A DNA stretch of 64,000 bases from Xanthobacter dioxanivorans (GTDB lineage Bacteria; Pseudomonadota; Alphaproteobacteria; Rhizobiales; Xanthobacteraceae): contig NZ_CP063362.1 of the NCBI RefSeq assembly GCF_016807805.1, positions 4,258,501 through 4,322,500 on the forward strand, read 5' to 3'. Shown piece after piece: positions 31,951-63,805 of the stretch. The notes below the pieces were generated by a model. The model saw only the letters and a program-made list of their open reading frames with translations, searched no databases and was not told where the DNA came from. The position numbers and the translations under genes were made by a program. Position 1 is the first letter of the stretch. Each line of letters starts with the position of its first letter.

Positions 31951-32697
31951 TCAGGGCTCGGGGGGCGCCTTGCGCGCGCGCGGCCGGGCCGGCTTCAGCG
32001 CCTTCACCGGGGCCGTTTCGAATTCGTGCAGGAAGGAGCGGATGATCCGCGCCACCATGACCGACTTGTCCTCCATGGCCGGAAGTCGGTGGATGTATTT
32101 GCGGATCAAGTAATAGATAAAGGTCGAGTGGAGGTGCCATGCGAGCTCGTATTCGAGGGGCTCGATGGCGCCTTCCACCACCAGTCCGCGATAGTCGCGC
32201 AGCTCGCGCAGGATGATTTCCAGCAGCCGGTTGACGTGGCTCTGCACGTAGCGATTGGTGATGTCGTGGCCGGCGAGGCTCGCATAGAGCGACACGCGGA
32301 TCCAGTGATACTCGTCCACGGCGTCGAAATAAGCGAGGTAGAAGCGCTCGAGGCGTTCGGGGAAGGGGACGGCGCGGTCCTTGAGATCCTGTTCCCACTG
32401 CGGTGACCAGCGTTGCAGGAACACGTTCTGGTACACCCGCTCCACAAGATTCTGCTTGGTGCCGAAATAGCGGAAGATGAGGCCCTGCGAGACGCCGATA
32501 CGCTCGGCGAGGTCCTTGGTCTGCGCCTCGAAGCCGTGCTCGGCGAAGAACTCCACCGCCGCGTCGAGGATCATGCGCTCCCGCACCGCGGGATCGAGCC
32601 GCGTGCGCGCGGCGGGGCGCTTGGCGCCGACCGTACGGGTCGCGGTGGAGCTGCGCCGCGGCTCGGGCTTCTCCTTGATGACAAGCGGCTTTTTCAC
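31951..32697 (-). CDS. TetR-family transcriptional regulator (left end of island)
   Basis: A ~248-residue repressor-type regulator. The N-terminal helix-turn-helix is in MILDAAVEFFAEHGFEAQTK followed by DLAERIGVSQGLIFRYFGTKQNL; the rest is the helical ligand domain. It is preceded by a basic ~45-residue extension. I place the start at GTG 32697 (GAGCGCAGG upstream); a TTG at 32793 with ACAGGAA is possible and would add 32 residues. It is divergent from the BKACE gene, with an AT-rich operator-like dyad between them. Its ligand domain is clearly similar to that of the second TetR at 63035-63805. Confidence 0.85.
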   Translation of the reverse strand: MKKPLVIKEKPEPRRSSTATRTVGAKRPAARTRLDPAVRERMILDAAVEFFAEHGFEAQTKDLAERIGVSQGLIFRYFGTKQNLVERVYQNVFLQRWSPQWEQDLKDRAVPFPERLERFYLAYFDAVDEYHWIRVSLYASLAGHDITNRYVQSHVNRLLEIILRELRDYRGLVVEGAIEPLEYELAWHLHSTFIYYLIRKYIHRLPAMEDKSVMVARIIRSFLHEFETAPVKALKPARPRARKAPPEP

Positions 32698-32837
32698 CCT
32701 GCGCTCCGATCGGCTGGAGGGCGATCCCCTCGGTGGCCCGCCCTCTCGCTCCAAGCTGGCCGGCACATGCTCCAAGCCAGGTCCTGTTGCCAATTCCTGT
32801 AGCTCTTCGGGAGCCTATTGACAATCGGCTCAATATG

Positions 32838-32858
32838 TAATGAGTCTTTAGTCAATAA
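32838..32858. promoter_or_regulatory. Operator-like dyad between TetR and BKACE genes
   Basis: TAATGA, eight bases, TCAATAA. The arms repeat exactly at 49294-49314 and the right arm at 40862-40868. A larger imperfect dyad, TATTGAC (32816-32822) with GTCAATA (32851-32857), encloses it. It ends 10 nt before the BKACE ATG, well placed for a TetR repressor controlling both divergent genes. Confidence 0.55.
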
Positions 32859-32867
32859 GGTGGCGCG

Positions 32868-33827
32868 ATGAGCCGCCAGTCGAGGGAGAGAACGTTGGCA
32901 AGATCCAAGAAAGTGATCATCACCTGCGCCGTGACGGGTGCCATCCACACGCCCACCATGTCGCCTTATCTGCCGATCACGCCGGACGAGATCGTCACCG
33001 ACGCGCTGGCGGCGGCGGAGGCGGGTGCGGCGATCCTGCACCTGCATGCGCGCAACCCGGAGACCGGCCAGCCGGACCAGCGTCCGGAGGCGTTCGCGCC
33101 GTTCCTGCCGCGGATCAAGCAGGCGACCAACGCGGTGATCAACATCACCTCGGGCGGCAGCCCGTACATGAAGGTGGAGGAGCGGGTTCTGCCGGCGGCC
33201 ACCTTCAAGCCGGAAGTGGCCTCGCTCAACATGGGCTCGATGAATTTCGGGCTGTACCACCTGCTCGACAAGTACAAGGAGTTCAAGTTCGACTGGGAGC
33301 GCACGCACCTGGAGAACACGCGCGACCTGGTGTTCCGCAATACGTTCAAGGATATCGAGTACATCCTGAACACCTGCTACGACAACGGCACGCGGTTCGA
33401 GTTCGAGTGCTACGACATTGGCCACCTCTACAACCTCGCCCACTTCCTCGATCGGGGGCTGGTGAAGGCGCCGTTGTTCGTGCAGTCGGTGTTCGGGCTC
33501 CTGGGGGGCATCGGGCCGCATCCGGAAGACGTGATGCACATGAAGCGGACCTGCGACCGGCTGTTCGGCGACCAGTATCGGTGGTCGGTGCTGGGGGCGG
33601 GGCGGAACCAGCTGCCGATCGCCGCCATGGCCGCGTCCATGGGCGGCAACATCCGGGTGGGGCTGGAGGATTCCCTGTGGGCCGGGCCGGGCAAGCTGGC
33701 CACCTCCAACGCCGACCAGGTGAAGCTGGCGCGCAAGATCATCGAGGGCCTGGGCCTCGACATCGCGACGCCGGACGAGGCGCGGGAGATCCTCGATCTC
33801 AAGGGCGCCGACAAGACCAATATCTGA
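32868..33827 (+). CDS. BKACE-family beta-keto acid cleavage enzyme (DUF849)
   Basis: A 319-residue TIM-barrel enzyme of the family that condenses a beta-keto acid with acetyl-CoA to give acetoacetate and a new CoA thioester. The zinc ligands H58 and H60 are in ILHLHARNPETGQ, and the conserved glycine-rich INITSGGSPY and the late GGNIRVGLEDSLW segments match the family. The founding member cleaves 3-keto-5-aminohexanoate in lysine fermentation, but the family has many substrates. The ATG at 32868 follows AAGGTGG. It is divergent from a TetR gene, the usual sign of ligand-induced catabolism. Confidence 0.88.
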   Translation: MSRQSRERTLARSKKVIITCAVTGAIHTPTMSPYLPITPDEIVTDALAAAEAGAAILHLHARNPETGQPDQRPEAFAPFLPRIKQATNAVINITSGGSPYMKVEERVLPAATFKPEVASLNMGSMNFGLYHLLDKYKEFKFDWERTHLENTRDLVFRNTFKDIEYILNTCYDNGTRFEFECYDIGHLYNLAHFLDRGLVKAPLFVQSVFGLLGGIGPHPEDVMHMKRTCDRLFGDQYRWSVLGAGRNQLPIAAMAASMGGNIRVGLEDSLWAGPGKLATSNADQVKLARKIIEGLGLDIATPDEAREILDLKGADKTNI

Positions 33828-33865
33828 GCGTGCGCGCGCCGACGCGCATGAGGGAATGAATAAAG

Positions 33866-33895
33866 CCACCAGGCCGGCGCCAAACTGCCTGGTGG
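33866..33895. other. Hairpin after the BKACE gene
   Basis: CCACCAGGC (33866-33874) pairs perfectly with GCCTGGTGG (33887-33895) around a 12-nt loop. There is no T-run on the plus strand, so it is a weak terminator at best. Nineteen bases later a TATAAT (33914-33919) could be the -10 box for the importer operon, but no matching -35 box is present. Confidence 0.5.
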
Positions 33896-34076
33896 TCAAA
33901 GAAAAATGACGGTTATAATATACCTCTACGCGGCCGGATGACAGGTCGTGAACCAATTACAAATACTGAGAGATGGATTTACCCGAAGGGTTGCTTCAAC
34001 CTGAGGGGATCCGGCGCTCTCGGAGGAAACAAAACCCGTAGAGCGGCCGGAAAAGGCCGCCTTCAAGGAGGACGCC

Positions 34077-35348
34077 ATGGATTCACAGCACGGAATTTCA
34101 CGCCGCACCGCCGTGGCGGGGCTCGCCGCGGGCCTCGCCGTCGCCAGCCTGCCGGCCATCGCCCAGACCGCCGGCCCGCCGATCCGCATCGGCATGGGCA
34201 TCGCCTTGTCAGGCGGCCTTGCCGCCTTCGGCAAGTCGGCGCTGCTCGCCATGCAGCTCTGGGCCGCCGACGTGAACGCCAAGGGCGGCCTGCTCGGCCG
34301 CAAGGTGGAGCTCGTCTTCTACGACGACCAGAGCAATCCCGCGACGGTGCCGGGCATCTATGCCAAGCTCATCGACGTGGACAAGGTCGATCTCGTGGTC
34401 TCCGGCTACGCCTCGAGCCAGATCGTGGCCGCCATGCCCACCGTGATGCAGAAGAAGAAGGTCTTCATGACCTTGTTCGGCCTCGCAGCGAACGACAAGT
34501 TCAACTACGACCGCTATTTCCAGATGCAGCCGAACGGGCCGGTGGCGCGCACCGAGTTCTCGAAGGGCTTCCTCAACGTCGCCATGTCGATGGATCCCAA
34601 GCCCACCACCATCGCGCTGGTGGGCGGCGACGCCGAATTTCCCTCGATCGCCCTCGACGGCGCGCGGGAGAATGTGAAGGCGCTCGGCCTCAAGGTCGTC
34701 TACGACCGCACCTACCCGCCGAACACCATCGAGTTCGCCTCGGTGGTGCGCGCGATCAAGTCCACCAATCCGGACCTGGTCTTCGTCGCCTCCTACCCGC
34801 CGGATTCCGCCGGCATGGTGCGGGCGGTGCGCGAGGTGGGGCTCGACGCGAAGATGTTCGGCGGTGGCATGATCGGCCTGCAGTCGGCGGCGCTGAAAAC
34901 CCAGCTCGGCCCCATGCTGAACGGCGTGGTCGCCTACGACCTCTACGCCCCCGAGCCGACCATGAAGTTCCAGGGCGTGGAGGACTTCCTCACACGCTAC
35001 CGGCAGGAAGCGGCGAAGCAGGGCGTGGACCCCCTCGGCTTCTATATTGCGCCGTTGGCCTATGCGGAACTGCAGATCCTCGGCCAGGCGGTGGAGGCGA
35101 CCAAGTCGCTCGACGACGCCAAGCTCGCCAAGTACATCCACGACACCACGTTCCAGACCATCGCCGGCGAGATCCGCTTCCAGGAGCGGGGCGAGTGGGC
35201 CGAGCCGCGCATCCTCCTCGTCCAGTTCCAGGGCATCGCGGGCAACGACGTCGCCCAGTTCATGGAAGCCGGCCGGCAGGTGATCGTTTATCCGCCCAAG
35301 TTCAAGTCCGGAACCTTCAAGTATCCCTTCAGCGCTGCTTCCAAGTAG
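34077..35348 (+). CDS. ABC transporter substrate-binding protein, branched-chain type (importer 1)
   Basis: A 423-residue periplasmic binding protein (Peripla_BP_6, LivJ/AmiC-like). The N-terminus has a Tat-like signal, SRRTAVAGLAAGLAVASLPA with an AIAQ cleavage region, so export may be by the Tat route. The mature domain opens IRIGMGIALSGGLAAFGKSA and contains the interdomain strand VDLVVSGYASS and TTIALVGGDAEF. Ligands of this family include amino acids, amides, urea and aromatic acids; with the catabolic genes around it, an aromatic or cyclic compound is likely. The ATG has AAGGAGGAC 6 nt upstream. First gene of a five-gene importer. Confidence 0.88.
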   Translation: MDSQHGISRRTAVAGLAAGLAVASLPAIAQTAGPPIRIGMGIALSGGLAAFGKSALLAMQLWAADVNAKGGLLGRKVELVFYDDQSNPATVPGIYAKLIDVDKVDLVVSGYASSQIVAAMPTVMQKKKVFMTLFGLAANDKFNYDRYFQMQPNGPVARTEFSKGFLNVAMSMDPKPTTIALVGGDAEFPSIALDGARENVKALGLKVVYDRTYPPNTIEFASVVRAIKSTNPDLVFVASYPPDSAGMVRAVREVGLDAKMFGGGMIGLQSAALKTQLGPMLNGVVAYDLYAPEPTMKFQGVEDFLTRYRQEAAKQGVDPLGFYIAPLAYAELQILGQAVEATKSLDDAKLAKYIHDTTFQTIAGEIRFQERGEWAEPRILLVQFQGIAGNDVAQFMEAGRQVIVYPPKFKSGTFKYPFSAASK

Positions 35349-35413
35349 GGGCGGCCCGAGCCGGCGGCGGGTCCCGTTCCCCGGGATCGTCGCGGCCGTC
35401 GCCCCGGAACCGG

Positions 35414-35437
35414 CCGGGCGGGCGTGAGCCCGCCCGG
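35414..35437 (+). other. Hairpin between binding-protein and permease genes (importer 1)
   Basis: A perfect 10-bp GC stem (CCGGGCGGGC with GCCCGCCCGG) capped by a GTGA tetraloop, 66 nt after the binding-protein stop. No T-run follows. Such structures often protect the upstream mRNA and lower expression of the permease genes. Confidence 0.65.
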
Positions 35438-35555
35438 GACGGCGGCCGCACGCGGCGCCGGAAGATCGCATCACGGCCGCGCCCCGCCGCCGTGCCACCG
35501 GCCACACGACGCCTGCCATCCACCCTCCGCAAGAGGAGATGGACTGGAGAAGGAC

Positions 35556-36431
35556 ATGGATTTCAGCTGGGACCTGCTGCTGAACGCGGTAGCCTCCGGG
35601 ATCATGCTCGGCGGCTTCTATGCCGCCGTGGCGATCGGAGTGACCATCGCCTTCGGCATGCTCGACATCGTGAACATCGCCCACCCGGCCTTCATCGTGC
35701 TGGGGTCGTTCCTCGCCTATCTCAGCATCAACGGGCTCGGAATCGATCCCTTCCTGTCGGCGGGTGTCTTCGCTGTGGCGGGCTTCCTGTTCGGGCGCGT
35801 TTTCTACCGAGCCTATTACTATTTCTTTGAAAGGCGCGGCGACGATTCCCTGCAAGGGCTCGCATTCTTCTTCGGCATCATGTTCATCGTCGAGATCAGC
35901 CTCGTGCTCGTCTTCGGCGTGGACTACCGCCTGATTGACCTGCCCTATCTCGCCAGGACCTACGAGATCGGCGTGGTGCAGATCCCGCTCCGCCTCGCCG
36001 CCCCCTGTGTCGCCGGCGTCGCCATGCTGGTGGCCATCCAGCTTTACATGTCCCGGACCTTCACCGGGCGCGCGATCCTCGCCGTCGCGCAGGACCTGGA
36101 GGCGGTGCGCTTCGTCGGCGCCGATCCGATCCGCGTCAAGGAAATCGCCTTCGGCATCGCGGTCGGCTCGGCCATCATCGCCGGCGTGCTGCTCATCGTG
36201 ATCCAGTCGGTGGAGCCGTCCATCGGCCGCGAGTTCATCGGCCGAGCCTTCGCCATCTGCGTCCTCGGCGGCATGACGAGCCTTCCGGGCACGCTCATCG
36301 CCGCCATGATCCTCGGCATCGCCGAGACAATGACCTCCACCTTCTTCGGGCCCTCCTGGTCGCCGGCGGTCGCCTTCGGGCTGCTGCTCGCCACTCTCGC
36401 CTTCCGTCCCGCGGGGATCCTCGGCCGATGA
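35556..36431 (+). CDS. Branched-chain-type ABC transporter permease, LivH-like (importer 1)
   Basis: A 291-residue inner-membrane permease with about eight helices. The N-terminal half shows the LivH hallmark GFYAAVAIGVTIAFGMLDIV followed by NIAHPAFIVLG, and the C-terminal half has the coupling region GRAFAICVLGGMTSLPGTLI. It pairs with the LivM-like protein to form the channel. ATG 35556 has GAGAAGG upstream; an in-frame start at 35424 would run through the hairpin region and is rejected. Coupled to the next gene by ATGA. Confidence 0.9.
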   Translation: MDFSWDLLLNAVASGIMLGGFYAAVAIGVTIAFGMLDIVNIAHPAFIVLGSFLAYLSINGLGIDPFLSAGVFAVAGFLFGRVFYRAYYYFFERRGDDSLQGLAFFFGIMFIVEISLVLVFGVDYRLIDLPYLARTYEIGVVQIPLRLAAPCVAGVAMLVAIQLYMSRTFTGRAILAVAQDLEAVRFVGADPIRVKEIAFGIAVGSAIIAGVLLIVIQSVEPSIGREFIGRAFAICVLGGMTSLPGTLIAAMILGIAETMTSTFFGPSWSPAVAFGLLLATLAFRPAGILGR

Positions 36432-37417
36432 CCGTCGCCTCCCACTTCTCCACCCCCTCCGCCCGGCGGACCCCGCGCGCCTTCAGCCTGCCCGTGCTCC
36501 TCGTGGGCGTGGCGCTCGTCGCCCTCGAACTGTTCGTCGGCGGCGGCGCCGGCGAATACTATCTGCTGCTCGCCTACGTGATCCTGCAGTATCTCGTCGT
36601 CGCCACCGGCTGGAACATCCTCGGCGGCTATGCCGGCTACGTGAACTTCGGCACCGCGGCGTTCTTCGCCGTGGGCTGCTACACCACGATCGCGCTGCAG
36701 AAGCTCGCCGACGTTCCTCTGCCGCTCTCCATCCTCGCCGCGGGCGTGGTGGCGGGGCTGCTCGGCCTCGGCACCGGCTATCTCACGCTGCGGCTGCGCG
36801 GGGTGTTCTTCTCCATCGCCACGCTGGCGATGGCCGTGGTGCTCCAGACGCTCATCATCAACTGGAGCTTCGTGGGCGGCGCGCGCGGCACCTATATCCT
36901 GCGGCCGGACCCGATCGCGCCGTTCACCACCTATGTGCAGTACCTGCTGGTGCTGATGACGGTGCTTGCCACCGCGTCCGTGCTCATCGCCATCGCGGTG
37001 GAGCGGTCCTGGATCGGCATGGGCCTCGCCGCCATCCGCGACGACGAGCTCGCCGCCGAGGCCAGCGGCGTGCCGGGGCTCCGGCTCAAGCTCATCGCCA
37101 CCACCCTGTGCGGTGCGCTGATGGGCATGGCGGGCGCCCCGTTCCCCTACTTCATCACCTATGTGGAGCCGGCCTCCGCCTTCAGCCTCGCCATCGCGGT
37201 GAACGCCATCGCCATGCCGCTGATCGGCGGGACGGCCACCTGGTGGGGGCCGGTGGTGGGCACGGTGCTGCTGGGCACCACCCAGCAGGTGCTCACCGTC
37301 ACCATCTCGTCGGCGGCGAACCTGCTCATCGTCGGCATCCTGCTGGTGGTGTTCGTCACCGCGGCGCCGACCGGTGTGGTCGGCCTGGTGCGCGGCATGC
37401 GGGGAGGGCGGAAATGA
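36428..37417 (+). CDS. Branched-chain-type ABC transporter permease, LivM-like (importer 1)
   Basis: A 329-residue permease. The family motif GWNILGGYAGYVNFGTAAFF lies near residue 60, and the coupling loop GLAAIRDDELAAEASGV near residue 200. It overlaps the LivH-like gene and the LivG-like gene by ATGA on both sides, so translation of the three is coupled. No ATPase domain is fused at the C-terminus, unlike in some LivM-LivG fusions. Confidence 0.9.
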   Translation: MTVASHFSTPSARRTPRAFSLPVLLVGVALVALELFVGGGAGEYYLLLAYVILQYLVVATGWNILGGYAGYVNFGTAAFFAVGCYTTIALQKLADVPLPLSILAAGVVAGLLGLGTGYLTLRLRGVFFSIATLAMAVVLQTLIINWSFVGGARGTYILRPDPIAPFTTYVQYLLVLMTVLATASVLIAIAVERSWIGMGLAAIRDDELAAEASGVPGLRLKLIATTLCGALMGMAGAPFPYFITYVEPASAFSLAIAVNAIAMPLIGGTATWWGPVVGTVLLGTTQQVLTVTISSAANLLIVGILLVVFVTAAPTGVVGLVRGMRGGRK

Positions 37418-38178
37418 TCATGCAGCGTCATGTCGCCTCCGGCCGCGCCCAGTCCGGCGACCCGCCGATCCTGGAGGCGAAGGGTGTCACCAAGCGGTTC
37501 GGCGGCTTTGTCGCCCTCGATGGGGTGGACTTCGCCATGGCGCCGGGCGAGCGCGTCGCGCTCATCGGTCCCAATGGCTCCGGCAAGAGCACGTTCGTGA
37601 ACTGCCTGAGCGGTGCGCTGACCCCGGAGGCGGGCAGCGTCCGTTTCGAGGGGCGGCTCGTCACCGGCATGCCGCCCTGGCAGCGGGCGCGGGCGGGGCT
37701 GGTGCGCAGCTTCCAGATCCCGCGCCCGTTCCGCCGTCTCTCGGTGATCGAGAACATCGAGGTTCCGCTCAACTTCGCGCTGGCCGAGCCGCCGCCCGGC
37801 GGCAAGGCGCAGCGGGCCCTGGAGATCCTCGAAAGCATCGGCCTCGGCGCCAAGGCCTACGGGAGCCCGAAGGACCTGAGCCAGGTCGAGCTGCGCAAGC
37901 TGGAACTCGGCCGGGCGCTGGCCGCCAATCCGCGCCTGCTCATCGCCGACGAGGCCATGGCGGGGCTATCCGACAGCGAGGTGGACGAGATCGTCGACCT
38001 GCTGGAGCGGCTCAACGCGCAGGGCATCGCCATCATCCTCATCGAGCACATCATGCGCGCGGTGATGCGGTTCTCGCAGCGGATCATCGTGCTGGTGGCC
38101 GGGCGCAAGATCGCCGATGGCCTACCCGGCGAGGTGATGCGCCAGGACGAGGTGGAAAGGGCATACCTTGGCCAATAG
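37414..38178 (+). CDS. Branched-chain-type ABC transporter ATP-binding protein, LivG-like (importer 1)
   Basis: A 254-residue ATPase. Walker A is GPNGSGKST, Walker B LLIADEAMAG, and the switch histidine is in IEHIMRAVM. The signature reads LSQVELRKLE, without the usual glycine pair, as in some LivG relatives; function is still expected. The aspartate of the usual DEP is followed by A, which is also common in this branch. ATG 37414 shares the LivM-like stop; a second ATG two codons on is possible. It overlaps the LivF-like gene by 11 nt. Confidence 0.9.
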   Translation: MIMQRHVASGRAQSGDPPILEAKGVTKRFGGFVALDGVDFAMAPGERVALIGPNGSGKSTFVNCLSGALTPEAGSVRFEGRLVTGMPPWQRARAGLVRSFQIPRPFRRLSVIENIEVPLNFALAEPPPGGKAQRALEILESIGLGAKAYGSPKDLSQVELRKLELGRALAANPRLLIADEAMAGLSDSEVDEIVDLLERLNAQGIAIILIEHIMRAVMRFSQRIIVLVAGRKIADGLPGEVMRQDEVERAYLGQ

Positions 38179-38902
38179 CATCAGCATCGAACGCCTCAGC
38201 GCCGGCTATGGCGCGGTGCGCGTCCTCACCGACATCGACATGCACGTGGCCTCCGGCGAGACGGTGGCGCTCCTCGGCACCAACGGCAACGGCAAGAGCA
38301 CGCTCATCAAGTGCATCACCGGCCAGGTCCAGCCCACGGCGGGCCGGGTCAGCGCCACCATCGACGGGGTTGAGCACAACCTCGCCGGCCGCTCCACCCA
38401 GGACATCATCAACCTCGGCATCGCCATCGTGCCGGAAGGCCGGCGGCTGTTCCCCAAGCTCACCGTGGAGGAGAACCTGCTGCTCGGGGCGTTCCGCGCC
38501 GCCGCGCGGCCGCGCCGAGAGGAGAGCCTCGCCTTCTGCTACGAGGCCTTCCCCCGCCTGAGGGAGCGGCGCACCCAGCTCGCCGGCTCCATGAGCGGCG
38601 GCGAGCAGCAGATGCTCGCCATCGCCCGGGCGCTGATGACGCTGCCGAAGATCCTGCTGGTGGACGAGCCATCGGTGGGCCTCGCGCCCATCCTCGTGGC
38701 GCGGACCATCGACACCATCGCCGACCTCAAGCAGCGCCTCGGCCTGACCGTGCTGATGGCGGAGCAGAACTTCCCGCAGGCGATCCGCATCGCCGATCGC
38801 GGCTACGTGCTCGTCCACGGGCGCATCGAGCTCACCGCGGACGACCCGCAGGCCCTGCGCGACAGCGACATCGTCCGCCAGCTCTATCTCGGCGGCGCCT
38901 GA
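38168..38902 (+). CDS. Branched-chain-type ABC transporter ATP-binding protein, LivF-like (importer 1)
   Basis: A 244-residue ATPase with Walker A GTNGNGKST, signature MSGGEQQMLAIARAL and Walker B ILLVDEPSVGLAP. The TTG start lies inside the end of the LivG-like gene with GGAAAGG upstream; the product begins MANSISIERLSAGYG. The paralogous gene of importer 2 also starts at TTG with MANEI and the same 11-nt overlap. The A-loop tyrosine and the Q-loop are intact. Confidence 0.9.
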   Translation: MANSISIERLSAGYGAVRVLTDIDMHVASGETVALLGTNGNGKSTLIKCITGQVQPTAGRVSATIDGVEHNLAGRSTQDIINLGIAIVPEGRRLFPKLTVEENLLLGAFRAAARPRREESLAFCYEAFPRLRERRTQLAGSMSGGEQQMLAIARALMTLPKILLVDEPSVGLAPILVARTIDTIADLKQRLGLTVLMAEQNFPQAIRIADRGYVLVHGRIELTADDPQALRDSDIVRQLYLGGA

Positions 38903-38963
38903 GGCCCTGCCTTTCACCACCCTCAAGGGGACAACCCCGAGGATCAACCCCAAGGACCAAGTC

Positions 38964-40868: not shown

Positions 40869-40926
40869 GACGACGCCGGCGAGCCACGTACAGGGACGAG
40901 GCGCGTGCGGCGCAAGGGAGGGTCGC

Positions 40927-55623: not shown

Positions 55624-56352
55624 ACGCCGCCGCCCTTGAAATCAGTGGCCTGACGAAGCGCTTCGGCGGCCTGGTGGTGACCCGCGACGTGTCCATGCGC
55701 ATCGCCCCCGGCGAGCGGCGGCTCATCATCGGGCCCAACGGGGCGGGCAAGACCACCCTGTTCAACCAGATCACCGGCGACCTGCAGCCCAATTCCGGCT
55801 GCATCCGCATGTTCGGTGAGGACATCACCAAGCTGAAGACCCGCCACCGGGTGGCGCGCGGCCTGGCGCGGACCTACCAGATCCTGACCCTGTTTCCGCA
55901 GGAGACGCTGCTGCACAACGTGGTGCTGTCGCTCCTCGGGCTAAGGCTGGAGCGCTGGGACCCGTGGCGGATCCTCGCCAACCGGTCGGACCTGTTCGAT
56001 CTCGCCCAGGACTCGCTGCAGCAGGTGGGGCTGGGCGCGTCCGGCCGGCGGCGGGTGGCGGAGACGTCCTACGGCGAGCGCCGGCGGCTGGAGCTGGCCA
56101 TGGCGCTGGCCCAGAAGCCGAAGGTGCTGCTTCTGGACGAGCCGCTCGCCGGCCTGTCGCCGGAAGAGCGCAACGGGGTGAGCGAGCTGTTCGCCGCCAT
56201 TCCGCGCGACGTCACCATCATCATGATCGAGCACGACATGGACGTCGCCCTTGCCTTCGCCGAGCAGATCACCGTGCTCCATTTCGGGCAGGTGATCGTC
56301 GAGGGGACAAGGTCCGAGGTGGTGTCCGATCCGCGCACGCGGGAGATCTATC

Positions 56353-56363
<11 letters not shown>
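55620..56363 (+). CDS. Branched-chain-type ABC transporter ATP-binding protein, LivG-like (importer 2)
   Basis: A 247-residue ATPase: Walker A GPNGAGKTT, signature TSYGERRRLELAMALA, Walker B VLLLDEPLAGLSP and switch histidine in MIEHDMDVA. All catalytic residues are intact, in contrast to the modified signature of importer 1. It overlaps the LivF-like gene by 11 nt. Confidence 0.9.
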
Positions 56364-57075
<712 letters not shown>

Positions 57076-57100
57076 GAGCCATAGTGCAGGACAAAGCAAG

Positions 57101-58165
57101 ATGAATGTTGTCTGGAACCGTTTCGGACCCACCGCCGCGCGCGTCCATGTCGAAGGCGAGCGCATCGCCCGACCGGCCACCGTGACCTTCGACATCCATT
57201 CCCACGTGGCGGTGCCGGAGGCGGCGAAGCTTGCCGGTCCGCACGTGGACCTCTCCACCATCCCGCTGGCGCATTTCGCCACCGAGGACACCAAAGCCCT
57301 GAACGTGCAGCAGGACCGCGACCGGACCTCGCGCATGACCGGCTACGACGACCGGCTCAAGGACCTCGACGAGGCCGGCATCGACATGCAGCTGGTGATG
57401 CCGCCGCCGCCGCAGTGCTACTACACCATCCCCGTCGACATCGCCGCCAAGGCCTCGCGCATGGTCAATGAGGGGCTCGCGGAATACGTGGCGCGCCGCC
57501 CCGACCGCTTCCGCGCATTCGGCACCGTGCCGCTGCAGGACGGCGAGGCGGCGGCGGACGAGCTGGAATACATGGTCAAGCAGCTCGGCTTCAAGGGCGT
57601 GCAGGTGCTCACCAATGTGGCCGGGCGGGAATTGTCCGATCCCGCGTTCGCGCCGTTCTGGGCCAGGGCGGAGGCGCTCGGGGCGGTGGTGGTGCTGCAC
57701 CCCAACGGCTTCACCCAGGCAGAGCGGCTGAAGCGCTTCTACTTCAACAACGTCATCGGCAATCCGCTGGAGACCACCATCGCCCTGCACTACCTCATCT
57801 TCGACGGGGTGATGGAACGCCATCCGAACCTGAAGATCCTTTCGGTCCACGGCGGCGGCTACGTGGCGGCCTATGCGGCGCGCATGGACCACGCGTGGGG
57901 CGCCCGCTCCGACGCGCGGGGCAAGCTGCTGCTGGCGCCCACCACCTATCTCAAGCGCATGTATTTCGACACGGTGGTGTTCTCCACCGGCCAGCTGGAG
58001 GCGCTGGTGAAGCTGGTGGGCGCCGACCATGTGCTGATGGGCACGGACTATCCCTACGACATGGCGGAGAGCGATCCCGTCGGCCACGTGATGGGCGCCG
58101 GTTTCGACGATGCCGCCAGGGCCGCCATCTGCGGCGGCAATGCCAAGGCGCTGCTGGGCCTGTGA
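57101..58165 (+). CDS. Amidohydrolase-family protein (ACMSD-like, Amidohydro_2)
   Basis: A 354-residue TIM-barrel metal-dependent hydrolase or decarboxylase. The first metal motif is H33-S-H35 (FDIHSHV), with later metal ligands in VLHPNGF, SVHGGGYV and the aspartate of LMGTDYPYDM. This is the layout of the ACMSD group, which includes decarboxylases of aromatic acids and 5-carboxyvanillate, and ring hydrolases. Non-oxidative decarboxylation or C-C/C-N hydrolysis of a pathway intermediate is likely. It begins 25 nt after the importer 2 genes and is followed by the zeta-type GST gene. Confidence 0.87.
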   Translation: MNVVWNRFGPTAARVHVEGERIARPATVTFDIHSHVAVPEAAKLAGPHVDLSTIPLAHFATEDTKALNVQQDRDRTSRMTGYDDRLKDLDEAGIDMQLVMPPPPQCYYTIPVDIAAKASRMVNEGLAEYVARRPDRFRAFGTVPLQDGEAAADELEYMVKQLGFKGVQVLTNVAGRELSDPAFAPFWARAEALGAVVVLHPNGFTQAERLKRFYFNNVIGNPLETTIALHYLIFDGVMERHPNLKILSVHGGGYVAAYAARMDHAWGARSDARGKLLLAPTTYLKRMYFDTVVFSTGQLEALVKLVGADHVLMGTDYPYDMAESDPVGHVMGAGFDDAARAAICGGNAKALLGL

Positions 58166-58199
58166 GAATGCTGCCCCGCACGCTGGGAGGACAAGGCCC

Positions 58200-58835
58200 A
58201 TGACGCTTCGCATGTACGGCTTCTGGCGCTCCATCGCCTCGTTCCGCCTGCGCGTGGCGCTGAACCTGAAGGGGCTCGCCTTTGAGGAGGAGAGCGTGGA
58301 CATCCTGCACGGCAGCCAGTTCACCGCTGCCTACGACAAGGTGAATCCGGCCCATTCGGTGCCTTCGCTGGTGGAGGAGGACGGGCACGTCCTCCTCCAG
58401 TCGCTCGCCATCCTCGAATATCTAGAGGAGACCCGCCCGCGGCCGCCGCTCCTGCCGGCCGCTCCGCGCGAGCGGGCCTATGCCCGGGCGCTGGCGCTCG
58501 CCACCGTGGCCGATACCCATCCGCTCATGGTGCCGCGTGTGCGCAGCCACCTCGCCGCCGCCTTCGGTGCCGACGAGGCGGCGGTCAATGCCTGGGTGCG
58601 GCACTGGGTGGGGGAGGGGATGGGCGCCTACGAGCGCCTTTTGTCCCGGCGCCCGCCCGCGCCCTTCGCCCTCGGCGCGGCGCCGGGCATCGCCGACATC
58701 TGCATCGCCGGCCACGCCATGAGCGCCCAGCTGTTCGCCATGGATCTGGAGCCCTATCCCGTCTTCAAGACACTGACCGAACGCTGCTTCGCGCTGCCCG
58801 CCTTCGCCTCGGCCCGCCCGCCGGGTGCGCGCTGA
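58200..58835 (+). CDS. Zeta-class GST-like isomerase (maleylacetoacetate/maleylpyruvate isomerase family)
   Basis: A 211-residue protein. The N-terminal active-site region MYGFWRSIASFRLRVALNLKG has the R-S-x-x-S-x-R-x-R pattern typical of zeta GSTs, followed by NPAHSVPSL and LQSLAILEYLEETRP. Enzymes of this class isomerise cis-trans double bonds of maleyl compounds with glutathione. This would fit a ring-cleavage product with a maleyl group, which is produced in gentisate, homogentisate and some pyridine pathways. ATG 58200 follows GGGAGGACAAGG. Last gene of the importer 2 cluster. Confidence 0.83.
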   Translation: MTLRMYGFWRSIASFRLRVALNLKGLAFEEESVDILHGSQFTAAYDKVNPAHSVPSLVEEDGHVLLQSLAILEYLEETRPRPPLLPAAPRERAYARALALATVADTHPLMVPRVRSHLAAAFGADEAAVNAWVRHWVGEGMGAYERLLSRRPPAPFALGAAPGIADICIAGHAMSAQLFAMDLEPYPVFKTLTERCFALPAFASARPPGAR

Positions 58836-58884
58836 TCCGGGGCGACCAGGGAAGGGGACGACCAGATGATCGTCCCCGGCCGCG

Positions 58885-61002
58885 TCATTCCTCCAGCAGA
58901 GCGGCCATGATGCGCGCGCGCGTCAGCGGCAGATGCCGCAGCCGCACGCCGAGGGCGCCGGCCACCGCATTGCCGATGGCGGCGATCACCGGCCCCTGGG
59001 ACACCTCGCCGATGCCGAGGGGCGGGTCCTCGGGCGTGCCGAGGATGCGGGTCTCGATCTCCGGAACCTCGGAAAAGCGCAGGATGGGATAGGTTTCCCA
59101 CTGGTCCGAGGCGACCCTGCCGTCGGCGAACCGCACCTGCTCCTTCAGCGCCCAGCTGGTGGCCTGGATGACGCCGCCCTCGATCTGGTTGCGCGCGCCG
59201 TCGGGATTGATGACGCGCCCGGCATCCACGGCGCACCACACGCGCGAGACGCGGACCTCCTCGTCCACCTTGAGTTCCACCACGGTGGCGAGGTAGGCGG
59301 CGAAGTTCTTGTAGCGGCTGAAGGCGAAGCCGCGGGCGGTGCCGTCCGGCATCACCGCCCCCCAGCCCGACATGTCCGCCGCCGCGGCGATGACCGCGCG
59401 CGCCCGCGGGTCGCTCATCAGCGACAGCCGATAGGCGACGGGGTCCATGCCGGCCGCCTCCGCCAGCTCATCCATGAAGCACTCGATGGCGAAGACGTTG
59501 GTGACCGCGCCGAGCCCGCGCATGGACGAGGTGCGCACTGCGTTTTCGGCGACGAAATGGTGCGCGATGGTCTGCGGAAAATCGTAGAGCGAGAAGCCGT
59601 TGCGCGTCGCGCCGCCGCCGGCCGCCTCGCTGAGGTCGACGGGCGGCGGGTCCTGCGGCGGGTCTTCCAGCGCCTGCGCGCCGAGCAGGTTGACCGCGCC
59701 GTTGATGCCCGGCCGGGCGGCATGGGTGGGGCTCCAGATCTCCTGCGTCCAGGCGAGGGGGCGGCCCTGGGCGTCGAGGTCGGTGGACACCTTCACCAGC
59801 ATCGCCGCGCCGAAGGGGGCGACGCCCAGCTCGTCCTCGCGGGTCCACAGCACCCGCACGGTCTGCCCCGGCCGGGCCATCGCCGCGAAGGCGGCGTCGA
59901 AGGCGGCGTCGTCGGCGCCGTTGTGGCCGTAGCAGCCCGCCCCCTGGTGGTGAATGACGTGGACGGAATCCGGCGCCAGCTTCAGGGCGCAGGCGATGGC
60001 GCCGCGCAGGAGAAAGACGCCCTGCGAATGGGTCCAGACGGTGAGCGTGCCATGCTCGAAGCGGGCGAGGCCGCAGGACGGAGCGATGGAGGCGTGGGCG
60101 ATATAGGGCTTGGAATAGGTGGCCTCCAGCCGGTGGCTCGCCGCCTCCCCGCCTGCCTCCCCTTGCCGGATGATCCGCACCGGAGCAAGCGGCCGCGCAA
60201 GCAGGCTCGATGCCTCCGAATCCGCCGCGTCCAGCGTCACGCCGCCCTCCCAGCGCGCCCGCTCGCGCAGGCGCTCGAAGGCGGCGGCCACCTGCCATTC
60301 GCGCTCCCCGATCACCGCGACGAGGTCGCCCGACCGCACCAGCGCGACCGCGTCGCCGCCAGCCCGGAGGGCGCCGGCCGCGTCGAGGGCGGCAAGCCGG
60401 GCGCCCACGCGCGGACGGTGCAGCACGCGGGCGTGCAGCAGGCCGGGAAAGTCGAGGTCCTGGATGAAGGGAGCGCCGCCGAGCTTCTCCGGCAGGTCGC
60501 GGCGCGGCACGTCCGTGCCGACGATGCGCAAGGCGGCGGCGGGCTTGGCTGGCGCGGTGCCGCTGGCCGGTCGCGCGAGGTCCACCGACCCGGCGAGCAT
60601 CCAGTAGTCGAGGCCGGTCGGCGCATCGTCGCGCAGGATCGTGCCGTCTGTGACGGACAAGGCGCGCACCGGGCAGCCGAGCCGCGCGGCCGCCGCCTCC
60701 AGCATCAGCGCCCGCACCTCGGCGCAGACGAGGCGGATGGCGCCGCCGGACAATTCCACCGAGCGGCTGCCGGCCGTATAGCCCTCGTTCGGCGCCGCGA
60801 CGGTGTCGCCGGACGTGAGCAGGATGCGCGCGATGGCCACGTCCAGCTCCTCGGCGGCGATCTGGACGAGGGCGGTGAGCAGGCCCTGTCCGAGTTCCAC
60901 CTTTCCGGTGCGCAGGGCCACCTGGCCGCCGGGCAGGATGCCGACCCACTGGTCGATACGCGGATTGTCGGCGAGGCTCTGGGGCAGCGTGTTGGGAATC
61001 AT
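58885..61002 (-). CDS. Molybdenum hydroxylase large subunit (xanthine oxidase family, isoquinoline/nicotinate type)
   Basis: A 705-residue molybdopterin cytosine-dinucleotide-type subunit with the aldehyde oxidase a/b hammerhead domain in the first half. The catalytic glutamate is E666 in LGIGEVSQGP. MoCo-binding segments include VELGQGLLTALVQIAAEEL at the N-terminus and SSMRGLGAVTNVFAIE in the middle. The single large subunit without an FAD subunit is the IorB/NicB-like layout. These enzymes hydroxylate a carbon next to ring nitrogen using water. No signal peptide was seen. It overlaps the small subunit gene by ATGA. No MoCo-insertion chaperone gene is nearby. Confidence 0.88.
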   Translation of the reverse strand: MIPNTLPQSLADNPRIDQWVGILPGGQVALRTGKVELGQGLLTALVQIAAEELDVAIARILLTSGDTVAAPNEGYTAGSRSVELSGGAIRLVCAEVRALMLEAAAARLGCPVRALSVTDGTILRDDAPTGLDYWMLAGSVDLARPASGTAPAKPAAALRIVGTDVPRRDLPEKLGGAPFIQDLDFPGLLHARVLHRPRVGARLAALDAAGALRAGGDAVALVRSGDLVAVIGEREWQVAAAFERLRERARWEGGVTLDAADSEASSLLARPLAPVRIIRQGEAGGEAASHRLEATYSKPYIAHASIAPSCGLARFEHGTLTVWTHSQGVFLLRGAIACALKLAPDSVHVIHHQGAGCYGHNGADDAAFDAAFAAMARPGQTVRVLWTREDELGVAPFGAAMLVKVSTDLDAQGRPLAWTQEIWSPTHAARPGINGAVNLLGAQALEDPPQDPPPVDLSEAAGGGATRNGFSLYDFPQTIAHHFVAENAVRTSSMRGLGAVTNVFAIECFMDELAEAAGMDPVAYRLSLMSDPRARAVIAAAADMSGWGAVMPDGTARGFAFSRYKNFAAYLATVVELKVDEEVRVSRVWCAVDAGRVINPDGARNQIEGGVIQATSWALKEQVRFADGRVASDQWETYPILRFSEVPEIETRILGTPEDPPLGIGEVSQGPVIAAIGNAVAGALGVRLRHLPLTRARIMAALLEE

Positions 61003-61475
61003 GCCGCCACCTCGTTCCGCAGGAGGCTGGCAGCGCGCTCCACCGCCCGCACCATGCGCCCCTGGGCGCCGCAGCGGCACAGATGCGGCTCCAGCGCGGC
61101 GATGATCTCGGCGCGCGAGGGCGCCGTGTTGTGGTCGAGCAGCGCCTTTGCCGACAACACGATGCCGGACAGGCAATAGCCGCATTGGCCGGCCTGCTCG
61201 TCGAGGAACGCCTGGCGGAGCGGATGCGCGCCGTCGGCGATGGCCTCCGCGGTCTCGATGCTGCGGCCAGCCGCGTCGCCCACCGGCAGCGTGCAGGAAT
61301 AGGCCGGCTTGCCGTCGACGAGCACCATGCATGCGCCGCACTGCTCCTCGCCGCAGCCGAAGCGGGTCGCCTTCAGGTCGAATTCGTTGCGCAGCACGTG
61401 GATCAGCGGAACGCTGTCGTCGATGGTGACGCGCCGCTCGATCCCGTTCACCCGAAACGCAAGTTCACTGGCCAT
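60999..61475 (-). CDS. Molybdenum hydroxylase [2Fe-2S] small subunit
   Basis: A 158-residue electron-transfer subunit. The N-terminal plant-type [2Fe-2S] cluster is bound by C41, C46, C49 and C61 (FGCGEEQCGACMV), and the C-terminal helical cluster by C98, C101, C133 and C135 (CGYC, CRCG). It carries electrons from the Mo site to an external acceptor, since no FAD subunit is present. ATG 61475 has GGAGGC 6 nt upstream; a longer in-frame start at 61598 crosses a tandem repeat and is unlikely. Confidence 0.92.
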   Translation of the reverse strand: MASELAFRVNGIERRVTIDDSVPLIHVLRNEFDLKATRFGCGEEQCGACMVLVDGKPAYSCTLPVGDAAGRSIETAEAIADGAHPLRQAFLDEQAGQCGYCLSGIVLSAKALLDHNTAPSRAEIIAALEPHLCRCGAQGRMVRAVERAASLLRNEVAA

Positions 61476-61533
61476 GACGCCTCCATGGAGCCGCAGGATA
61501 ATCCAACGCCGGACCGGCGCGGCGATGCGCCGG

Positions 61534-61571
61534 GGCAAGAACGCGCCAGGCAAGAACGCGCCGGGCAAGAG
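61534..61571. repeat. 15-bp tandem repeat, 2.5 copies
   Basis: GGCAAGAACGCGCCA repeats head to tail at 61534, 61549 and partly at 61564, with single-base changes. It lies in the 581-nt gap between the hydroxylase small subunit and the second reductase (61476-62056), within the predicted leader of the hydroxylase mRNA. No gene is supportable in that gap; the only other content seen is the promoter and operator described at 61787-61827. Confidence 0.6.
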
Positions 61572-61786
61572 CTCGCTGGATAAACGGGGATGGGCCACGC
61601 CATATCGTTGCCTCCGCCGATGATCTGCGCTGTCACGCCTGCATGCTCGACCGCGCCCTTGTGGACGAACCGCCTCGGCGAGGAAAGAAGGAACGTCGGC
61701 AAGCCGGTGAAACGATGGACAAGGGCGTCGGCCAATTCCGCGGACCCGCTTGCCGGGCGGGCGGGGCCCCAGGCATCGAAAGGGTT

Positions 61787-61802
61787 GTTTATCAGTCGAT
61801 AA
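61787..61802. promoter_or_regulatory. Operator-like sequence at the molybdenum hydroxylase promoter
   Basis: On the minus strand TTATCGACTGATAAAC, overlapping the -10 box. Together with the next two bases it matches 15 of 18 positions with 40851-40868, where the sequence also abuts a -10 box. The core TTATC-AGTC-GATAA is a perfect 5-bp dyad. Confidence 0.55.
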
Positions 61803-61827
61803 TCCTTGCTATTGAGCAGCTTGTCAA
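61799..61827 (-). promoter_or_regulatory. Sigma-70-type promoter of the molybdenum hydroxylase genes
   Basis: On the minus strand TTGACA (61827-61822), 17-bp spacer, GATTAT (61804-61799). The predicted transcript would have a long leader of ~315 nt before the small subunit, containing the tandem repeat; a second, closer promoter is possible. Confidence 0.55.
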
Positions 61828-62056
61828 TTATCCAATGACGGCAGGTTCCGCCGGACCTTGCCCTGCAGGCCGGCGCCGAACGGTCCCTCGCCTCAGGCGG
61901 GGGGAGCGATTGACCGGTGCGGCTGGTCCAAGCTCGCCGGACCCTGCTCGAGGGATACGGCCACGGCGTGTTCCGCGACCTGAAAAGCCATCAACATGCA
62001 CCGGCGGTTCCGGCCCGAAGCGGTTCGGCCGGCCCGGCCGGGTCGGAGGAAACAGC

Positions 62057-62959
62057 ATGAGCACACCTGAGCGCCCGCGCGTGGGCATCGTCGGCCTCGG
62101 CATCATGGGTTCCGCCTATGCGCGCAACCTGCGGGAGGGCGGCTTCGACGTCGTCGGCTTCGACGTGGCGCCGGCGGCGCAGGCGGCCCTGGCGGCGATG
62201 GGCGGCACGGTTGCCGCCTCGCCCGGGGACGTGGCGGCGCAGGCCGACGTGATCCTCATCGCCCTCGCCTCCGTGGACGCGCTGAAGGCCGTATGCGGCG
62301 GGCCGGAGGGCCTGGTGCACACCATCCGCCCCGGCGTTCCGGTGGTGGAGATGAGCACCTTCCCGCTCTATGCCAAGGACTATTGCCGGGACCTGTTCGA
62401 GGCGAAGGGCAATCCGGTGCTGGATTGCCCGGTGAGCGGCACCGGCGCGCAGGCGGCGGTGCGCGACCTCGTGCTCTACGCGTCCGGCGAGGAGGCGGTG
62501 GTCGAGCGGCTGCGTCCCATGTTCGACGGCTTCGCCCGCTCGACGCGCTATGTGGGGCCGTTCGGCTCCGGCACGAAGCTGAAGTTCGTCGCCAACCTCC
62601 TCGTGACCATCCACAACCTCTCCACCGCCGAGGCGGTGCTCATGGCGCATCGCTCGGGCCTCGACCTGAAGATGATGTTTGAGGCCATCCGCGACGGCGC
62701 CGGCAATTCCCGCATGTTCGAGGTGCGCGCGCCGATGATGTTCGAGGAATGCTACCAGCCGGCGGGCATGAAGTTCGAGGTCTACATGAAGGATCTCGAC
62801 CTCATCAGCGACTTCGCCCGCGACATGCGGGTGCCGACGCCGCTCCTGGCGGCGAGCATTCCCTTCTACGTGGCAGCGCTTGGCGCCGGGCGGCACGCCG
62901 ACGACACGGCGGGCCTCTATTCGGTGCTCAAGGAGATGAGCGCGCCGCGCGGCGAATAA
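62057..62959 (+). CDS. NAD(P)-dependent beta-hydroxyacid dehydrogenase, second paralogue
   Basis: A 300-residue member of the 3-hydroxyisobutyrate dehydrogenase family. Cofactor motif VGIVGLGIMGSAYARNLREGG, substrate signature VLDCPVSGTGAQAAVRD, and catalytic lysine in FGSGTKLKFVANLLV. The ATG follows GGAGGAAAC. It differs from the paralogue at 48353-49243 in the substrate loops, so a different hydroxyacid is likely. It is divergent from the molybdenum hydroxylase genes and convergent with the second TetR gene. Confidence 0.88.
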   Translation: MSTPERPRVGIVGLGIMGSAYARNLREGGFDVVGFDVAPAAQAALAAMGGTVAASPGDVAAQADVILIALASVDALKAVCGGPEGLVHTIRPGVPVVEMSTFPLYAKDYCRDLFEAKGNPVLDCPVSGTGAQAAVRDLVLYASGEEAVVERLRPMFDGFARSTRYVGPFGSGTKLKFVANLLVTIHNLSTAEAVLMAHRSGLDLKMMFEAIRDGAGNSRMFEVRAPMMFEECYQPAGMKFEVYMKDLDLISDFARDMRVPTPLLAASIPFYVAALGAGRHADDTAGLYSVLKEMSAPRGE

Positions 62960-63034
62960 ACGGCGGTCGGGTCCGCCTCGCCGGCGCGGTGCGGACCCCT
63001 CCGGCGCCGGCCTTCGTCGAGGGAGCAGGCGGGC

Positions 63035-63805
63035 TCAGGCGGGGCCCGTCTTGCGCGGGGAGCGCGTGCGCGGCTTCGCCGGCGGCGGGGCAACGGCCCG
63101 GGCCTCGCACCGCCGCTGGGCCAAGATCTCCGCATAGCCGCCAAAGAACAGGTCCAGCGCGCAGGAAATCATCTCGTTCTTCGGCAGGAACGTGCGGGCG
63201 TGATAGATGTACTTGCGCACGCCGTAATAGAAGATGCCGCTCTGCAGGTTCCAGGCGATTTCCAGATCGCGGTTGCCGATCGTCTCCGGCGGTTCCAGGC
63301 CCTGCTCCACGTGAAATTCGCGGATGATGCGCGACAGCAGTCGCTCCTCGACCAGCGTGATGTAGCGCTCGTTGATGTGTTCGCCCTTCAGGCCCGCGAA
63401 GAAATAGATCCGGATCCACAATGGGGTCAGGATGGTGTCGGTATAGGCCTCGTAGAAGTCCTGCAGGCGCGCGCGCAGGGGCCGGCTGCGGTCGGTGAGC
63501 AGCGCGTCCCAGCTCGGCTTCCACTGGTCGAGGAAGACGACCTTGTAGATCTCCTGGATCAGCGCGTCCTTGTTGGGAAAGTAGCGGTAGAGCAAAGGCT
63601 GGGTGGTGCCGAGATGGCGGGCGAGGTCACGCGTCCCGCCGCCGAACCCCACCTTGGAGAAGTATTCGATGGATTTCGTCAGGATCTCCTGCCGGCGGTC
63701 CTCCGCCGAAAGGCGGCGCTTCGGTGCCGGCGCGTCGCGCTCGCCCCGCGCTTCCTGGCCCCGCTGCTCCGGCTTCGCCTTGCGCCGCCCCGCTGCCCGC
63801 TCCAT
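63035..63805 (-). CDS. TetR-family transcriptional regulator (right end of visible island)
   Basis: A 256-residue regulator with a basic ~35-residue N-terminal extension, the helix-turn-helix in ILTKSIEYFSKVGFGGGTRD and LARHLGTTQPLLYRYFPNKD, and a long ligand domain. The ligand domain follows the same pattern as the TetR at 31951-32697 (IYKVVFLDQWKPSWDALLTD against VYQNVFLQRWSPQWEQDLKD). The ATG at 63805 begins MERAAGRRKAK. The last 195 bases of the window (63806-64000) show no gene I can support. The divergent partner, if any, is beyond the edge. Confidence 0.88.
   Translation of the reverse strand: MERAAGRRKAKPEQRGQEARGERDAPAPKRRLSAEDRRQEILTKSIEYFSKVGFGGGTRDLARHLGTTQPLLYRYFPNKDALIQEIYKVVFLDQWKPSWDALLTDRSRPLRARLQDFYEAYTDTILTPLWIRIYFFAGLKGEHINERYITLVEERLLSRIIREFHVEQGLEPPETIGNRDLEIAWNLQSGIFYYGVRKYIYHARTFLPKNEMISCALDLFFGGYAEILAQRRCEARAVAPPPAKPRTRSPRKTGPA

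Follow-up and report, generated by a model that had tools for sequence, protein, structure and literature searches.

What does a run of oxidising enzymes, hydrolases, importers and regulators in Xanthobacter dioxanivorans break down, and does it act as one unit? The genes begin at position 31,951 of the 64,000-nucleotide stretch analysed here (assembly GCF_016807805.1, contig NZ_CP063362.1, positions 4,258,501 to 4,322,500, forward strand), which we call the window, and a sequence-only reading had described them as an unassigned catabolic island. That description is borne out: the genes belong to recurring clusters, and the set is confirmed as real, recurrent and uncharacterised. The island is a single acquired insertion built of three conserved modules, and many of the same genes re-cluster repeatedly in other Xanthobacteraceae. 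As to function, we give an even chance to the proposal that the island serves uptake and aerobic breakdown of one cyclic, probably aromatic or related, compound by oxidation, hydrolytic ring opening and the action of a beta-keto acid cleavage enzyme (BKACE).

Empty sites were read in four congener genomes. At all four, homology ends at 31,898 (window numbering) and restarts at 74,641-74,688, and therefore about 42.7 kb, from 31,899 to about 74,650, has been inserted. The window holds 31,899..64,000 of this insertion, the remaining ~10.6 kb lying beyond its end in the flanking stretch L087; the region first noted, which stopped at 63805, was thus too short on the right and covers the left three quarters of the insertion. 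The distance from an AI-2E-type transporter gene (ending at 31,928) to the enolase gene is 1.8-1.9 kb in five of five congeners and 44.5 kb here, and the cyclase described below is absent from all six congeners searched at E 1e-60. GC content shows no contrast (68.3% in the island, 68.8% and 70.3% in the flanks). An integrase- or tRNA-borne element was considered as the mode of entry and dropped: library scans of the island proteins gave no integrase family (several genes past the window are named by similarity only), a tRNA gene search at the island found none, and the flanking direct repeats amount to one of 11 bp. An Rfam scan of the 64-kb window returned 0 matches.

Genes were predicted with a codon-usage gene caller, and 30 window proteins were scanned against Pfam and NCBIfam (at most 25 families per protein) and matched to structures in the PDB. 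The window part of the island comprises the following features, with the module given at its first genes.

31951..32697, minus strand, TetR-family regulator 1 (module 1); PF00440, E 1.5e-15
32913..33827, plus strand, BKACE (module 1); NF053538, PF05853, 8rio
34113..35348, plus strand, LIV-type importer 1, substrate-binding protein; PF13458
35556..37417, plus strand, LIV-type importer 1, two permeases; PF02653
37414..38902, plus strand, LIV-type importer 1, two ATPases; PF00005
38964..39920, plus strand, cyclase 1, a PF04199 hydrolase and candidate ring opener; PF04199 E 2e-19, 5ibz E 8.1e-65
39917..40654, plus strand, SDR dehydrogenase 1; PF13561
about 40927..42171, plus strand, FAD monooxygenase resembling 2,6-dihydroxypyridine hydroxylase (DHPH) (module 2); NF005566 474 bits (cut-off 333), 2vou E 2.8e-46
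42268..42711, plus strand, cupin without a Pfam family; weak PDB match to cupin 9u8n, E 2.9e-8
42774..43604, plus strand, PcaD-like alpha/beta hydrolase; TIGR02427 253 bits, slightly below the cut-off of 255.85
43763..44863, plus strand, luciferase-like monooxygenase (LLM); PF00296, 3,6-diketocamphane monooxygenase 4uwm E 6.2e-25
44953..45945, plus strand, Gfo/Idh/MocA dehydrogenase; PF01408
45983..46936, plus strand, LysR regulator; PF03466, PF00126
46956..47657, minus strand, beta-etherase-like GST; NF042997 below cut-off, PF22041
47764..48207, minus strand, HbpS-like protein (module 3); PF03928
48353..49213, minus strand, HIBADH-type dehydrogenase 1; PF03446, PF14833
49490..51196, plus strand, CocE/NonD hydrolase; TIGR00976 223 bits (cut-off 66)
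51270..52067, plus strand, GntR regulator, start uncertain; PF00392, PF07729
52300..57075, plus strand, LIV-type importer 2 (binding protein, two permeases, two ATPases); PF13458, PF02653, PF00005
57101..58165, plus strand, ACMSD-like amidohydrolase; PF04909, best structures ACMSD at E 5.8e-44, no NCBIfam match
58212..58835, plus strand, zeta GST of maleylacetoacetate-isomerase type; TIGR01262 208 bits (cut-off 171)
58885..61002, minus strand, molybdenum (Mo) hydroxylase, molybdopterin subunit; PF20256, PF02738
60999..61451, minus strand, Mo hydroxylase, [2Fe-2S] subunit; PF01799, PF00111
62081..62959, plus strand, HIBADH-type dehydrogenase 2; PF03446, PF14833
63035..63805, minus strand, TetR-like regulator 2, named solely by 36% identity to TetR 1 over 219 residues

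Every gene class named by the sequence-only reading was recovered by gene calls, family scans or structure matches; the SDR, Gfo/Idh, beta-etherase-like GST and HbpS-like genes are additions to its list. The start of the FAD monooxygenase was placed near 40,927 from the position of its dinucleotide-binding motif. Histidines of the cupin are conserved across 12 sequences, and a search among 5.8 billion proteins gave 1161 cupin relatives with names such as BauB or quercetin-dioxygenase-like, none of which gives a function. Past the window end, the island continues with cyclase 2 (64,109-65,059 in window numbering; L087:2109-3059), a histidinol-dehydrogenase-like (HisD-like) gene (L087:3071-4378), a second SDR gene (SDR 2), a GntR-like regulator, a CobW-type GTPase and a NitT/TauT-type importer, so named from the NMT1-type binding protein of the related cluster c18. 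An LVIVD-repeat gene near the right island end (L087:10318-11561, window about 72,318-73,561) reads as frameshift-broken.

The three modules stand end to end in the window, and relatives of most island genes occur in genome G051, which we take to be Aquabacter spiritensis, where they are split over three loci. The first locus carries TetR, BKACE, a TRAP importer replacing importer 1, cyclase and SDR genes, and the second TetR, FAD monooxygenase, cupin, TRAP importer, PcaD-like hydrolase, LLM, TauE/SafE-family and MFS transporter, Gfo and LysR genes. At the third, HbpS, HIBADH, CocE, importer 2, ACMSD-like, zeta GST, Mo hydroxylase and CMD-like genes are followed by HIBADH, TetR, cyclase 2, HisD-like, SDR and NitT/TauT importer genes. 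Gene order at this third locus matches that of the window and of the sequence to its right, except that the CMD-like gene and five genes ahead of the last importer are extra and that the GntR gene found between CocE and importer 2 in the window was not seen there.

Elsewhere, genes of different modules are fused into single clusters in another order. Genome G012 (loci L112 and L113) has 16 island gene types within ~22 kb, namely cupin, FAD monooxygenase, ACMSD-like, importer 2, CocE, two HIBADH types, HbpS, CMD-like, zeta GST, Gfo, LLM, SDR, HisD-like, cyclase and BKACE, the proteins being mostly 50-89% identical to their island counterparts. Nearly the same set, minus the zeta GST, is found in G056 (L096, L097), and G003 (L103) brings together, in ~11 kb, BKACE, cyclase, HisD-like, SDR, CMD-like, HIBADH-type, ACMSD-like, FAD monooxygenase, cupin and two-subunit Mo hydroxylase genes. 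G010 (L100, L101) holds both LIV importers and a three-subunit Mo hydroxylase, together with genes like those for homoprotocatechuate dioxygenase, CHMI and FAA hydrolase, and in a Tardiphaga record (L017) genes for BKACE, importer 1 and a cyclase lie together with those for CocE, importer 2, an ACMSD-like enzyme, Gfo, HIBADH and a Mo hydroxylase. Loci of the best 80 of 348 cyclase relatives were also collected, many of which end at contig borders; 77 gave gene calls (the caller was trained on the window and called none in L081, L083 and L085). Among these 77, a Mo large subunit of either type occurs at 36, a HisD-like gene at 41, an SDR at 42, BKACE at 21 and the FAD monooxygenase at 11.

Six markers (cyclase, BKACE, LLM, FAD monooxygenase, CocE and the Mo large subunit) were mapped in 148 other genomes, all of one family, using identity limits set after the match lists had been viewed: at least 68% for cyclase, 64% for LLM and 45% for FAD monooxygenase (about one match per genome), and at least 51% for the Mo large subunit, 71% for CocE and 69% for BKACE. 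Weaker matches (e.g., cyclases at 53-61%, LLM at 47-54% and Mo subunits at 35-50%) and most partial matches are left out, and for many genomes scoring was limited to the top candidates, for example 7 per genome for the Mo subunit and 12 for the FAD enzyme. Expected counts assume 4-Mb genomes; kinship is ignored, which makes p-values too small, and broken contigs lower the observed counts. At a distance of at most 10 kb, cyclase and BKACE are found together in 12 of the 39 genomes having both (0.25 expected), FAD monooxygenase and CocE in 11 of 27 (0.14 expected), and LLM and FAD monooxygenase in 10 of 34 (0.17 expected). Within 30 kb, the cyclase is accompanied by LLM in 23/37 genomes having both (expected 0.62), by FAD monooxygenase in 25/47 (expected 0.74), by CocE in 12/29 (expected 0.51) and by Mo hydroxylase in 6/23 (expected 0.38). 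Moreover, 23 of the 24 genomes with an island-type Mo hydroxylase also hold the cyclase. A control gene (22242-23657), found in 144 of 149 genomes, never comes within 30 kb of the cyclase (0 of 60 cases), the control drawing on the 61 of 144 genomes that also hold the cyclase.

Several marker pairs therefore co-locate far above chance, whereas others do not, and the latter weigh against a single pathway. Again within 30 kb and among genomes having both markers, the Mo hydroxylase is joined by LLM in 0/17, by FAD monooxygenase in 1/20 and by BKACE in 1/17, and BKACE by FAD monooxygenase in 3/37, by LLM in 3/34 and by CocE in 2/19; BKACE presence is weakly tied to cyclase presence (odds ratio 2.2, p 0.015). 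On the same side of the balance lie the splitting of the A. spiritensis relatives over three loci; the Gfo (39%), HIBADH 2 (43%) and zeta GST (49%) proteins of G012, which may be non-orthologous members of large families; a Rhodococcus cyclase (48%) that has no catabolic neighbours among the genes listed; the lack of an annotated cyclase beside BKACE in three plasmid regions examined (3 of 163 plasmid records with BKACE were examined, and 3 of 21 with the cyclase); and a replacement in the cyclase metal motif described below. The three loci, the failed pairs and the presence of BKACE with other partners could instead reflect a patchwork, that is, one insertion whose modules serve two or three separate pathways, each with its own importer and regulator, and the two or three importers, two TetR regulators and two cyclases of differing motif in one island would fit this too. 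We consider a patchwork rather unlikely, however, given the fusion of modules in G012, G056, G003 and G010 and the near-constant company of the cyclase in genomes that hold the Mo hydroxylase. The genes are not dispersed among neighbouring genomes as unrelated operons without co-occurrence, since many re-cluster, and to this extent the island of the sequence-only reading holds together; its unity does not extend to the three A. spiritensis loci or to the LLM-Mo hydroxylase, FAD monooxygenase-Mo hydroxylase and BKACE-FAD monooxygenase pairs.

For the proposal of one compound and one route, we infer a single pathway, the order of its steps, its ring opener and its substrate from gene content. 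The importers would take up the cyclic compound, which the CocE-type and ACMSD-like enzymes may trim, and the Mo hydroxylase and two flavin monooxygenases would oxidise it. The PF04199 cyclase-family hydrolase would then open the ring with water, the SDR and HIBADH-type enzymes would oxidise a hydroxy acid, and BKACE would cleave a beta-keto acid with acetyl-CoA to yield acetoacetate and an acyl-CoA. No ring-cleaving dioxygenase would be needed, because the cyclase would open the ring hydrolytically. Such an opening, suggested earlier as one option, is plausible and has two precedents in the PF04199 family: the opening of dihydrophloroglucinol in a route ended by a BKACE (PMC10470551; this and the other papers cited by PMC number are represented here by excerpts), and the isatin step proposed for an indole cluster (PMC9871250).

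The cyclases themselves bear on this step. The nearest solved relative of cyclase 1, 5ibz, is uncharacterised, and isatin hydrolase (4j0n) matches it weakly (E 0.026 overall, with the motif stretch aligned at -1.9 bits). On this weak alignment, the isatin hydrolase stretch HSGTHFDAPHH corresponds to QAATHWDSLGH in cyclase 1 and to QASTQWDALCH in cyclase 2; the first motif His of characterised relatives is Gln in cyclase 1, and both motif His are Gln in cyclase 2. The second motif His is kept in 73 of 77 aligned cyclase sequences. Cyclases 1 and 2, which are 68% identical, thus differ in motif (THWD versus TQWD) within one island, and the difference may mean two substrates or two steps. More tentatively, we suggest that this island, like its relatives, might encode an aerobic pathway that is widespread in Hyphomicrobiales yet undescribed. 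Oxidation by Mo and flavin enzymes would come first in it, then hydrolytic ring opening by a PF04199 enzyme whose metal site is altered, and BKACE would act last.

The BKACE matches its family models (NF053538, 550.5 bits against a cut-off of 430; PF05853 full-length, E 2.7e-109, residues 1-296). NF053538 is named for 3,5-dioxohexanoate, a name that rests on the in vitro activity of relatives, and the match to Paracoccus denitrificans BKACE15 (8rio) has E 2.2e-137. On three other replicons, BKACE has as neighbours a 3-hydroxyacyl-CoA dehydrogenase with lactonases, a 3-hydroxyacyl-CoA dehydrogenase with a LIV-type importer, or neither; because these neighbours vary and include no annotated cyclase, BKACE must act at the end of several pathways, not of one. 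A second copy in X. dioxanivorans lies 2.2 Mb away (G000:C1, about 2.07 Mb; L088:11815-12738), follows a 3-hydroxyacyl-CoA-dehydrogenase-like (TfD-type) gene and is 99.7% identical over 924 bp to 32904-33827. Congener BKACEs are present in 6/6 genomes at 92-94% identity, and a recent copy or gene conversion confined to the coding region is therefore likely.

A pyridine- or quinoline-like carboxylate, hydroxylated by the Mo and DHPH-like enzymes, decarboxylated by the ACMSD-like enzyme and opened as a lactam by the cyclase, would follow the N-heteroaromatic substrate first suggested for the island. The nearest solved structure to the FAD monooxygenase is indeed 2,6-dihydroxypyridine hydroxylase (2vou, aligned over residues 2-358), but the likeness is one of sequence alone, at the family level, and no other gene of the 2,6-dihydroxypyridine route was recognised beside it or elsewhere in the island. 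The Mo hydroxylase has Fe-S and Mo subunits but no FAD subunit, and its MoCoBD_2 domain precedes MoCoBD_1, a layout that we take to be that of Ior. As for other such enzymes, deoxyribose is oxidised by an Ior-like Mo enzyme, and vanillin is the proposed substrate of a close one (PMC6365646); because of these relatives, belonging to the Ior type does not identify the substrate. The ACMSD-like protein matches ACMSD structures best, and no kynurenine gene was recognised. The matches listed for the 30 window proteins likewise include no family of the nicotinate/maleamate route (2,5-dihydroxypyridine dioxygenase, deformylase, maleamate amidase or maleate isomerase). Pyridine routes generally end in C4-C5 dicarboxylates. 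The substrates of BKACE15 are uncharged C5-C6 keto acids (PMC11961710), which would suit a six-carbon ring or carbocycle better than an N-heteroaromatic. PF04199 members that open isatin (4j0n), or are proposed to act on indole (PMC9871250), and the joint presence of Mo enzyme, FAD monooxygenase, cyclase and ACMSD-like genes in G003 speak for a nitrogen-containing ring, although the FAD monooxygenase and Mo hydroxylase rarely lie within 30 kb of each other, as counted above. An N-heteroaromatic substrate is thus possible, but we regard it as improbable.

Alicyclic or terpenoid catabolism would instead cast the LLM as a type II Baeyer-Villiger monooxygenase, with the PcaD-like and CocE hydrolases opening lactones or esters. 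The closest structure to the LLM is 3,6-diketocamphane 1,6-monooxygenase (4uwm), and the PcaD-like hydrolase adjoins the LLM here, in A. spiritensis and in G060; the similarity is at the family level, however, and such a route would need neither the Mo hydroxylase nor the DHPH-like enzyme, so that we find it distinctly improbable. In A. spiritensis, the LLM gene is followed by the TauE/SafE-family exporter and MFS transporter genes (L090:15664-17623), both absent from the window, and G060 (L093) has two genes of similar size, unscanned, at this position.

The TauE/SafE-family exporter, the NMT1-type binding protein of cluster c18 and the HisD-like enzyme, whose nearest structures are sulfopropanediol dehydrogenases, might point to breakdown of an organosulfonate, with the sulfonate handled by the HisD-like enzyme and NitT/TauT-type importer. 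We judge this very unlikely, the least probable of the alternatives: no desulfonating enzyme was recognised, the genes concerned lie outside the region first noted or are absent from it, and the HpsN signature GRY(A/S)H is not kept. HpsN identity was dropped on this last ground, the HisD-like enzyme having GKYPL instead. GKYPL in a HisD/HpsN-family dehydrogenase fits neither of the signatures given in the excerpts of PMC11382572, and the enzyme perhaps represents a third HisD/HpsN subfamily.

The proposal of a single cyclic compound broken down aerobically therefore remains our preferred reading. A gene set that re-forms across genera points to an unrecognised environmental nutrient, and the earlier statement that no described pathway has this set stands, none having been found in open-licence PMC full texts (subscription papers were outside the search). 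Several described systems share parts of the set. The indole cluster of Providencia rettgeri combines a flavin monooxygenase, an SDR and a PF04199 protein, as does the island, but its oxygenase is of the styrene-monooxygenase type, and the excerpts of PMC9871250 mention no BKACE or Mo hydroxylase. BKACE15 of P. denitrificans (8rio, 8rip, 9hnf) aligns with the island BKACE over the whole protein, including the shared stretch TCAVTGAIHTP.MSPYLP. Its physiological role is stated as unknown (PMC11961710), and the undescribed pathway, if real, would give BKACE15-type enzymes this missing role.

Another parallel is the phloroglucinol pathway, whose reductase, PGR, is presumably of the SDR class. In Clostridium scatologenes, this pathway (PGR, DPGC, TfD, TAL) likewise has an SDR-type reductase, a cyclase-family C-C hydrolase and a BKACE in one cluster, and the metal site of DPGC is like that of isatin hydrolase (PMC10470551). 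TAL acts on 3,5-dioxohexanoate, for which the BKACE model matched here is named. Unlike that pathway, the island adds flavin monooxygenases and a Mo hydroxylase. Assignment of the island to this pathway was dropped: the BKACE type agrees, but the cyclase metal motif does not, no TfD-type (3-hydroxyacyl-CoA-dehydrogenase-like) family is listed for the 30 window proteins, and a pattern search, made without alignment to PGR, found ART in SDR 1 and ARS in SDR 2 in place of the PGR motif TR(S/N).

Finally, the CoxMSL region of plasmid pRL8 in Rhizobium johnstonii 3841 (NC_008383.1) contains TetR and Mo hydroxylase genes together with relatives of several island proteins: its cyclase shares 82% identity with cyclase 2, its SDR 61% with SDR 2 and its HisD-like protein 72% with the island enzyme, and its LIV-type importer resembles importer 1 (46-60%). 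It differs in that its Mo enzyme is a three-subunit CoxMSL, whose large subunit shares just 29% identity with the Hyphomicrobiales CoxL type, and in that no BKACE, LLM, CocE or ACMSD-like gene is among the 29 features listed in an incomplete gene table. On pRL8, the genes for CoxMSL and CoxG are specific to the pea rhizosphere, CoxMSL forms a group separate from known CO dehydrogenases, and coxG and coxM mutants compete less well, with competition indices of 0.44 and 0.73 (PMC3333776), which provides a phenotype for a named relative of the gene set; the excerpts of that paper do not name the cyclase. In Ancylobacter polymorphus, HisD-like, TetR, cyclase, SDR, CoxMSL-type and CoxG genes also stand together on plasmid pA, where the cyclase cluster is close to acetone carboxylase and CoA-transferase genes (L105, NZ_CP083240.1). 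The undescribed pathway, if real, would also hint at what the pea-rhizosphere region consumes, and two named strains could address this question and the role of BKACE15: A. spiritensis DSM 9035, where each of the three modules has relatives, and R. johnstonii 3841, which has the cyclase, SDR and HisD-like core of module 3. The setting of the pRL8 CoxMSL genes, with cyclase, SDR and HisD-like genes close by, suggests a catabolic rather than a CO-oxidising role.

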